Origin: Serratia quinivorans
Lineage (GTDB): Bacteria > Pseudomonadota > Gammaproteobacteria > Enterobacterales > Enterobacteriaceae
Assembly (NCBI GenBank): GCA_900457075.1
Contig: UGYN01000002.1
Span: 744,001-808,000, forward strand
DNA length: 64,000 nt
Direction of reading: 5' to 3'
Of this stretch, positions 1 through 396 are shown piece by piece. The notes under the pieces were generated by a model. The model did no database searches, was not told where the DNA came from, and worked only from the letters and a program-made list of their open reading frames with translations. Made by a program: the position numbers and the translations under genes. Each line of letters begins with the position of its first letter. Position 1 is the first letter of the stretch.

Positions 1-208
1 CCGCCAGATAGTCGGCGACCAGATTAAGCACGTTGGTGCTGATTTTTTGCGGATTATTGCCGTTATCGGTCAGCCCCTGCAGGTCCGCCACCAGCACCGT
101 TTGCTGATGGTGTTGTTGCAGCTCAACGCGCTGGCGCAGTGACCCGACGTAGTGACCTAAATGCAGGGAGCCGGTGGGACGATCGCCGGTCAGAATGGTA
201 TAGCTCAT
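1..208 (-). CDS. trpS: Tryptophanyl-tRNA synthetase (partial, N-terminal end)
   Basis: Charges tRNA-Trp with tryptophan in the cytoplasm. Only the first 69 residues are inside the window; the gene runs off the left edge. The N-terminus reads [20 protein letters not shown], with the class I signature HLGH (the HIGH motif) at residues 16-19 after the typical TGDRPTG lead-in. The start is supported by AGGAG eight bases upstream. Directly upstream lies a Trp-codon leader peptide and an attenuator hairpin, so expression should rise when charged tRNA-Trp is scarce. The usual enterobacterial trpS sits elsewhere (near dam/gph), so this may be a second copy; that is inference. Confidence 0.9.
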
Positions 209-248
209 TGCCTTGCTCCTGAAAGTAAATACACCACCGGATCAACGC

Positions 249-278
249 AATAAAAATGCCGCCAGAACCGGCGGCATT
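249..278 (-). terminator. Attenuator terminator hairpin of the trpS leader
   Basis: On the minus strand a perfect 9-bp stem (AATGCCGCC paired with GGCGGCATT, loop of six) is followed at once by a T-rich run. It lies between the leader peptide and the trpS ribosome binding site, so it would stop transcription before trpS. Its left arm (270-276) is also exactly complementary to 300-306, giving the mutually exclusive antiterminator expected of attenuation. Confidence 0.85.
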
Positions 279-299
279 GAAAAGAGGTGTGAATACCCG

Positions 300-306
300 T
301 GCCGCC
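300..306 (-). promoter_or_regulatory. Antiterminator arm (region 2) of the trpS attenuator
   Basis: The minus-strand sequence GGCGGCA here is the perfect complement of TGCCGCC at 270-276, the 5' arm of the terminator. It also overlaps a 5-bp pairing (CGCCT with AGGCG) with the end of the leader-peptide coding region. A ribosome stalled on the Trp codons would block that early pairing and free this arm to form the antiterminator. Confidence 0.7.
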
Positions 307-307
307 T

Positions 308-361
308 TTAGAAGAGGCGCCACCAGGACTGATTGAGTGTGGATTGCATCGGTATATTCAT
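308..361 (-). CDS. Trp-rich leader peptide of the trpS attenuator
   Basis: A 17-codon minus-strand ORF reads MNIPMQSTLNQSWWRLF then TAA. Two tandem TGG codons at 320-325 (residues 13-14) lie just before the pairing region, the hallmark of Trp attenuation. A sigma70-like promoter (TTGACA, 17 bp, TACCTT) lies immediately upstream. It puts the transcript start close to the first ATG, so translation may be nearly leaderless or begin at the in-frame second ATG (Met5); no good Shine-Dalgarno is seen. It is too short for ordinary gene callers. Confidence 0.7.
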   Translation of the reverse strand: MNIPMQSTLNQSWWRLF

Positions 362-367
362 GCTTTT

Positions 368-396
368 AAGGTATCCCCCAGTATGGGCGTTGTCAA
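368..396 (-). promoter_or_regulatory. Putative sigma70 promoter of the trpS leader
   Basis: Minus strand: TTGACA at 391-396, 17-bp spacer, TACCTT at 368-373. The -35 overlaps the lysR stop codon. It drives the leader peptide and then trpS. Confidence 0.6.

Follow-up and report, generated by a model that had tools for sequence, protein, structure and literature searches.

A Trp-codon attenuator, probably reaching the Shine-Dalgarno sequence, before the auxiliary tryptophanyl-tRNA synthetase genes of Proteobacteria

In the stretch of Serratia quinivorans DNA analysed here (64,000 nucleotides, hereafter the window), a gene for a second, auxiliary tryptophanyl-tRNA synthetase (TrpRS), trpS2, is preceded on the minus strand by a leader that we read as a ribosome-mediated Trp-codon attenuator dedicated to this gene and supplemented by a translational layer, a reading to which we assign a probability of about 80% as a whole. 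The attenuator itself is very likely; that its switch also governs access to the trpS2 ribosome-binding site is probable, and is held with much more modest assurance. The sequence and its comparison with relatives supply the parts, their conservation, the partner-specific pairing of the helices 1:2, 2:3, 3:4, 5:6 and apex:5, and the tie of the leader to trpS2 and to a second TrpRS. We infer that ribosomes stall, that termination takes place, that the leader ORF starts at the mRNA 5' end, and in what order the final step proceeds.

Architecture of the trpS2 leader

The components of the leader are collected in Table 1. A sequence-only reading of the window had placed a promoter, a 17-residue ORF with tandem TGG codons, a 7-bp antiterminator and a 9-bp terminator with a T run, in that order, before trpS. 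The order holds on the minus strand, and the leader ORF, ending in Trp-Trp-Arg-Leu-Phe, and the antiterminator (GGCGGCA at 306-300 with TGCCGCC at 276-270, 7 pairs) were recovered as described, whereas the terminator hairpin (278-255, -15.7 kcal/mol), with its T run in place, has a stem of ten pairs rather than nine. Likewise, the -35/-10 pair exists with a spacer of 17 nt between TTGACA and TACCTT, but the -10 hexamer is the weaker half, agreeing with the consensus at only three of six positions, which is why the promoter scan tool did not list it. A LysR-type ORF upstream, also on the minus strand, has its stop codon (393-395) within the -35 hexamer. The gene downstream does encode a TrpRS, scoring 230.1 bits with the NCBIfam family TIGR00233 against a curated cut-off of 176.75, but it is the auxiliary copy and not the housekeeping gene.

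Table 1. Features of the trpS2 leader in the window.
Feature	Position	Strand	Basis or remark
-35 hexamer TTGACA	391-396	-	read in sequence; overlaps stop codon of LysR-type ORF
-10-like hexamer TACCTT	368-373	-	6 nt before leader ATG
Leader ORF, 17 codons, MNIPMQSTLNQSWWRLF	308-361	-	predicted +1 at or near 361
Tandem Trp codons TGG TGG	320-325	-	read in sequence; found again in relatives
Segment 1	315-323	-	pairs with segment 2; 1:2 hairpin overlaps Trp codons
Segment 2	299-307	-	306-300 is the antiterminator arm, with 276-270
Segment 3, terminator 5' arm	269-278	-	folding and comparison
Segment 4, terminator 3' arm	255-264	-	loop 265-268
U-run of intrinsic terminator, UUUUUAUU	249-256	-	sequence
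Segment 5	233-249	-	candidate partners: Shine-Dalgarno region (209-226) or terminator apex (233-247 with 260-275)
Segment 6, trpS2 ribosome-binding region	209-226	-	Shine-Dalgarno AGGAG at 216-220
trpS2, 5' end	1-208	-	start at 208; continues beyond the window, complete in L002

The window contains the sequence features of a ribosome-mediated amino-acid attenuator, namely a short leader ORF with tandem cognate codons, mutually exclusive antiterminator and terminator helices supported by comparison, and an intrinsic terminator preceding the gene. The element is not ended by this terminator; positions 209-249 belong to it as well. Short ORFs and hairpins are common, and folding of the whole leader against shuffled sequences gave a z-score of -2.24, with 3 of 200 shuffles as good. 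Conservation is the stronger evidence against chance. That a short ORF came to stand beside two hairpins by accident is already contradicted by conservation and covariation across many genera, and is vanishingly improbable.

According to the proposed mechanism, plentiful Trp-tRNA would allow the leader peptide to be completed, upon which 1:2 and then 3:4 would form and transcription would stop at 249-256; in a transcript that reads through under such Trp-replete conditions, segment 5 would cover the Shine-Dalgarno sequence of trpS2 (5:6). When charging fails, by Trp starvation or inhibition of the housekeeping TrpRS, the ribosome would stall at 320-325 and mask segment 1, with the result that 2:3 would form, block 3:4 and let RNA polymerase continue. 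Segment 5, emerging before the Shine-Dalgarno sequence, would then capture the freed apex of the terminator (the 3' half of segment 3, the loop and the start of segment 4), and the Shine-Dalgarno sequence would be left open.

For comparative tests, 122 leaders were clustered into 65 groups, and removal of three false ones gave 62 non-redundant leaders; L132, L135 and L149, with Trp-Trp inside longer ORFs, and far matches in L138 and L152 had been left out before counting. The leader ORF is probably read from a leaderless mRNA, judging from the spacing of its upstream signals. In 35 of the 62 leaders the motif TAnnnT precedes the leader ATG by exactly 6 nt (mean of 1.5 and maximum of 7 in 200 shuffle sets), a -10-like hexamer ends 6-8 nt before the ATG in 49, and 39 of these 49 have TTG 16-18 nt farther upstream. 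Since the hexamer stands 6-8 nt from the ATG, transcription is predicted to start at or beside that codon. A Shine-Dalgarno-like motif before the leader ATG was found in only 4 of the 62. The trpLE(G) leader of Sinorhizobium meliloti, whose RNA 5' end is described as the trpL ATG (PMC7298713), offers a precedent by analogy for such a start; it differs in controlling trpE(G) and not a synthetase.

Association of the leader with a second TrpRS

Among 394 genomes of the order, 65, including the source genome, encode a synthetase of the TrpS2 type at E 1e-80 or better, and in 58 of these loci a Trp-Trp leader ORF ends about 100 nt before trpS2. Uncorrected for relatedness, the leader occurs in 58 of 59 genomes with two TrpRS genes and in none of the six in which TrpS2 is the sole TrpRS. 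The sequence-only reading had held that trpS homologues devoid of the TGG codons would speak against it, and such homologues do exist. The seven in the order comprise six single-TrpRS genomes, one of them (G285) only 79% complete, and L051, which has different upstream DNA and lies near a contig end. In one sole-TrpRS genome (G186, L058:1385-1500) a terminator-like hairpin is kept and the leader ORF is missing; it may be a decayed leader. A class-wide sample of 369 genomes returned two matches at E 1e-90, the source genome and L068, the latter lacking the leader.

Named genomes hold at least 80 trpS2 loci, and of the 80 listed, 57 have the leader and 23 do not. The latter comprise 16 from single-TrpRS genomes and seven from genomes with more (L088, L098, L131, L137, L142, L143 and L146, L098 and L051 representing one genome). 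TrpRS genes were counted in the genomes of 61 of the 80 loci: the leader is there in 38 of 45 with two or more TrpRS genes and in 0 of 16 with a single one. These counts are again uncorrected for relatedness, and Firmicutes make up many of the single-copy rows; L132, L135 and L149, which belong to the 16, have the Trp-Trp in a longer ORF, not counted as a leader. We read these patterns as the leader going with the auxiliary status of TrpS2, rather than as a refutation.

All of the listed leader-bearing loci are labelled proteobacterial except one metagenome-assembled genome labelled Gemmatimonadaceae. They include Aeromonas, Vibrio, Photobacterium, Moritella, Shewanella, Pseudoalteromonas, Hafnia, Klebsiella, Kluyvera, Enterobacter, Citrobacter, Lelliottia, Edwardsiella, Burkholderia, Paraburkholderia, Massilia and others, so that the Trp-Trp leader also precedes trpS2 in Betaproteobacteria, and it occurs on plasmids too, with all four plasmid-collection records examined carrying it. 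On the Klebsiella plasmid pB18083_2 (L069:1776-7467), IS1 transposase genes flank on either side a tryptophan permease gene (mtr) and trpS2 with its Trp-Trp leader, and an identical gene is present on one E. coli plasmid. Matches occur in two of 5,426 E. coli genomes, each time on a plasmid, with 100% and 78% identity. A linear Salmonella record of 8.1 kb that is listed as a plasmid (L070:162-1300) also has trpS2 with the leader.

A covariance model built from 23 leaders and searched against 247 genomes found one match in each of 27, all just upstream of TrpS2 as judged by eye; the matches do not include the putative Aeromonas genus, whose leaders are absent from the model. Applied to twelve chosen loci (ten leader-less TrpS2 loci, the housekeeping trpS and the trp operon leader), the model matched only L058 (E 0.065) and L057 (E 0.6), both of them weakly.

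Pairing partners and the Shine-Dalgarno switch

Covariation of the alternative stems, named beforehand as the check to make, bears out the alternative pairings. Pairing partners were permuted among species 20,000 times over all 62 leaders, with a length limit on the search for the 3:4 hairpin, as without it the apex:5 helix was picked in many rows. None of the 20,000 permutations reached the native pairing for 1:2, 2:3 or 3:4, and the alternative helices are thus partner-specific across the 62 leaders. The same test gave 0 of 20,000 for both 5:6 and apex:5. Relay of the signal through arm 4 alone (4:5) was rejected: native partners were no better than swapped ones by a composition-corrected score (13,989 of 20,000 permutations as good), and 5,324 of 20,000 were as good by raw energy. 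By these comparisons the partner of segment 5 is the terminator apex with the 3' half of segment 3, not arm 4 alone.

In an alignment of 36 sequences, RNAalifold predicted the 2:3 antiterminator as the sole helix. This alignment was not used for the apex:5 counts, its gaps near segment 5 looking misplaced in one group; instead, 23 of the 36 rows were picked by eye for a consistent segment 5 and realigned from sequence alone, with structure strings drawn from a single row (L097), and the counts hold for those rows only. Compensated changes are present there in both 2:3 and 3:4. The antiterminator 2:3 has 92.8% of cells paired and double changes at two of six pairs, which is not above shuffles (179 of 500 as high), and the off-state helices have 90.5% of cells paired and double changes at 8 of 18 pairs. 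For apex:5 the corresponding values are 95.1% and five of eight pairs (0 of 500 shuffles), and it has the highest covariation score and paired-cell share among the structures counted in the 23 rows; its count of further pair types in this alignment is not above shuffles.

Taken leader by leader, 55 of the 62 have an apex:5 helix better than shuffles (p 0.05 or less), and only 31 have a 5:6 helix better than dinucleotide shuffles at that level. In all 62 leaders the apex and the Shine-Dalgarno sequence are rivals for one and the same part of segment 5, which supplies one mark of a translational attenuator of the sequestering type, conserved competing pairings of an anti-Shine-Dalgarno strand, with 5:6 taken alone reaching the 31 leaders just given. 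In the window, 5:6 can cover the AGGAG at 220-216 with -13.0 kcal/mol (p 0.01), and segment 5 with the apex reaches -18.7 kcal/mol (p 0.02).

Equilibrium folding with 2:3 forced did not open the Shine-Dalgarno sequence, median accessibility being 0.20 in both states over the 62 leaders; accessibility rose by more than 0.2 in four and fell in four, and in the window it was 0.43 with and without 2:3 forced. When the Shine-Dalgarno strand is absent, as in nascent RNA, apex:5 exceeds 2:3 in stability in 46 of 62 leaders and falls below it in 3; set against 3:4, it is the more stable in only 23 and the less stable in 32. In the full-length RNA, 3:4 with 5:6 is more stable than apex:5 in 45 leaders and less so in 13, and 2:3 with 5:6 is more stable in 24 and less so in 31. 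Because the full-length energies favour 3:4 with 5:6 in 45 of 62 leaders, the translational step would have to be kinetic, and such a kinetic exchange by segment 5 is possible on these modelled energies.

A plain transcription attenuator of four segments, like that of the trp operon, with segments 5 and 6 as incidental structure between terminator and gene, would accommodate the complete set of classical segments in the window, the failure of 2:3 to free the Shine-Dalgarno sequence at equilibrium and the weak match to the Rfam Trp_leader (26.1 bits against a cut-off of 41). It does not account for the partner specificity of apex:5 and 5:6 or for the leading place of apex:5 in covariation over the 23 rows, and inspection by eye of this genome's own trp operon leader showed no comparable stretch between terminator and trpE. 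Nor does it fit the distribution of terminators. A U-run, by a liberal rule of five in eight, is absent from 24 of the 62 leaders, the hairpin with a U-rich tail being present in 38, and for this reason intrinsic termination is not universal among trpS2 leaders. In eleven leaders the U-run is missing and the 3:4 hairpin is weaker than -12 kcal/mol as well, and ten of these eleven keep apex:5 at p 0.05 or less. The plain arrangement is hence unlikely.

The persistence of apex:5 in those terminator-poor leaders suggests that the common core of the family is pairing of the Shine-Dalgarno sequence and not termination. Taken to its end, this would make the element foremost a translational attenuator, whose Shine-Dalgarno switch is conserved and whose terminator is a lineage-specific addition, in keeping with the 24 leaders without a U-run and with the overlap of apex:5 and the Shine-Dalgarno-pairing part of segment 5 in every leader. 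However, the terminator of the window is a good one, a hairpin with a U-rich tail is found in the majority already mentioned, and the switch is not seen in equilibrium folding, so we regard a translation-first element as somewhat unlikely.

A further alternative is that the leader responds to a signal other than uncharged tRNA-Trp, for instance in a TnaC-like manner, with the nascent peptide acted on by free tryptophan or by an antibiotic. A few residues after Trp-Trp do recur within groups (RSN, LPS, CCS), but the rest of the peptide varies widely, and what is kept is Trp-Trp and its distance to the stop codon, with 15-24 nt between the start of the first Trp codon and the end of the stop in 59 of 62 leaders. 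Sensing of this kind is very improbable. The preferred reading is accordingly the Trp-codon attenuator with its added translational layer. In its most complete form, it would be a six-segment dual-level attenuator on proteobacterial auxiliary TrpRS genes, in which a leaderless Trp-Trp ORF is followed by an apex that captures the anti-Shine-Dalgarno strand, a single stall permits both transcription and translation of an inhibitor-tolerant spare TrpRS, and loss of the terminator in some lineages leaves the translational switch alone; we give this complete form an even chance.

The spare synthetase and its relation to known systems

The genome of S. quinivorans holds two TrpRS genes, and the product of trpS2 (335 aa) is 29% identical to the housekeeping TrpRS, which scores 387.9 bits with the TrpRS family. 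The housekeeping trpS stands behind putative rpe and gph genes, and its start overlaps the end of gph, leaving no room for such a leader. The closest solved relatives of TrpS2 are the TrpRS II structures 2a4m and 1yi8 (about 413 bits; next-best chain 212), which we take to be from Deinococcus radiodurans. Changes at the equivalent of His43 reportedly confer indolmycin resistance, and TrpS2 carries Gln at that position, equated by eye, in agreement with that report. The Deinococcus enzyme differs in its control, being described as induced by radiation damage (PMC9437257).

Pseudoalteromonas luteoviolacea HI1 has three TrpRS genes, two of them of the TrpS2 type (L161:5117-8493 and L162), of which one keeps the Trp-Trp leader. 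The other has none and starts 36 nt after an aminotransferase ORF, itself part of a row read from the ORFs as methyltransferase, small glyoxalase-like protein and aminotransferase. With the published indolmycin cluster described as methyltransferase, aldoketomutase, aromatic aminotransferase and Trp-tRNA ligase (PMC5069768), the HI1 row looks like that cluster, matched by predicted function and not by sequence, the published strains being different ones. In P. luteoviolacea IPB1 (L164:4519-8706), trpS2 and its leader lie beside ORFs resembling vioE, vioD and vioC of violacein synthesis, as judged by eye. TrpS2 is most likely an inducible spare TrpRS and may plausibly tolerate inhibitors of TrpRS such as indolmycin. 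We infer that enzymes of this type are useful when the main synthetase is inhibited.

Among known RNA families, Rfam RF00513 (Trp_leader) is close to the trpS2 leader; both have a short ORF with tandem UGG codons toward its end, the helices 1:2, 2:3 and 3:4 and an intrinsic terminator. The trpS2 leader differs in controlling a synthetase, in its apparently leaderless ORF and in the extra segments 5 and 6 that extend to the Shine-Dalgarno sequence. Its RF00513 score, given above with the gathering cut-off that it does not reach, ranks fourth of 51 matches in the genome, the trp operon leader of the same genome scoring 76.9 bits; the Rfam scan of the window yielded no family at its cut-off. The attenuator of pheST uses Phe codons and serves a housekeeping enzyme, and in both respects it differs from the trpS2 leader. 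What the two share is control of a synthetase, pheST being an attenuated synthetase operon of gammaproteobacteria (PMC1262725).

Attenuation of a TrpRS gene had been called much less familiar than that of the trp operon and pheST, but a precedent exists in Streptomyces. Vecchione and Sello are said to have reported in 2010 the action of an attenuator on the indolmycin-resistant TrpRS of Streptomyces. Trp-codon attenuators before a second trpS were predicted for Streptomyces in 2005 (PMC1262725), and Streptomyces TrpRS1 is described as indolmycin resistant (PMC9437257). The likeness to trpS2 lies in a Trp-codon attenuator before a second TrpRS gene; the differences are that Streptomyces belongs to another phylum and that the consulted part of PMC1262725 mentions no Shine-Dalgarno switch. 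In the open-access literature searched, judged from titles and abstracts, no description of the proteobacterial trpS2 leader was recognized, and the main text of PMC2965389 does not contain "trpS". Within the scope of these searches, what is new is a family of such leaders in Proteobacteria, its link with the presence of a second TrpRS, the probable leaderless start of the ORF and the proposed exchange between apex and anti-Shine-Dalgarno strand.

Taken together, the trpS2 leader would give many Proteobacteria a self-contained, so far unannotated sensor that deploys a second TrpRS only upon failure of the first, a clean natural case of inducible target duplication, and it travels with trpS2, plasmids included. 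The anti-Shine-Dalgarno exchange, if true, would extend the textbook four-segment attenuator to translation, and since the leader is missing from genomes that have TrpS2 as their sole TrpRS, the logic of the system can be put to the test.
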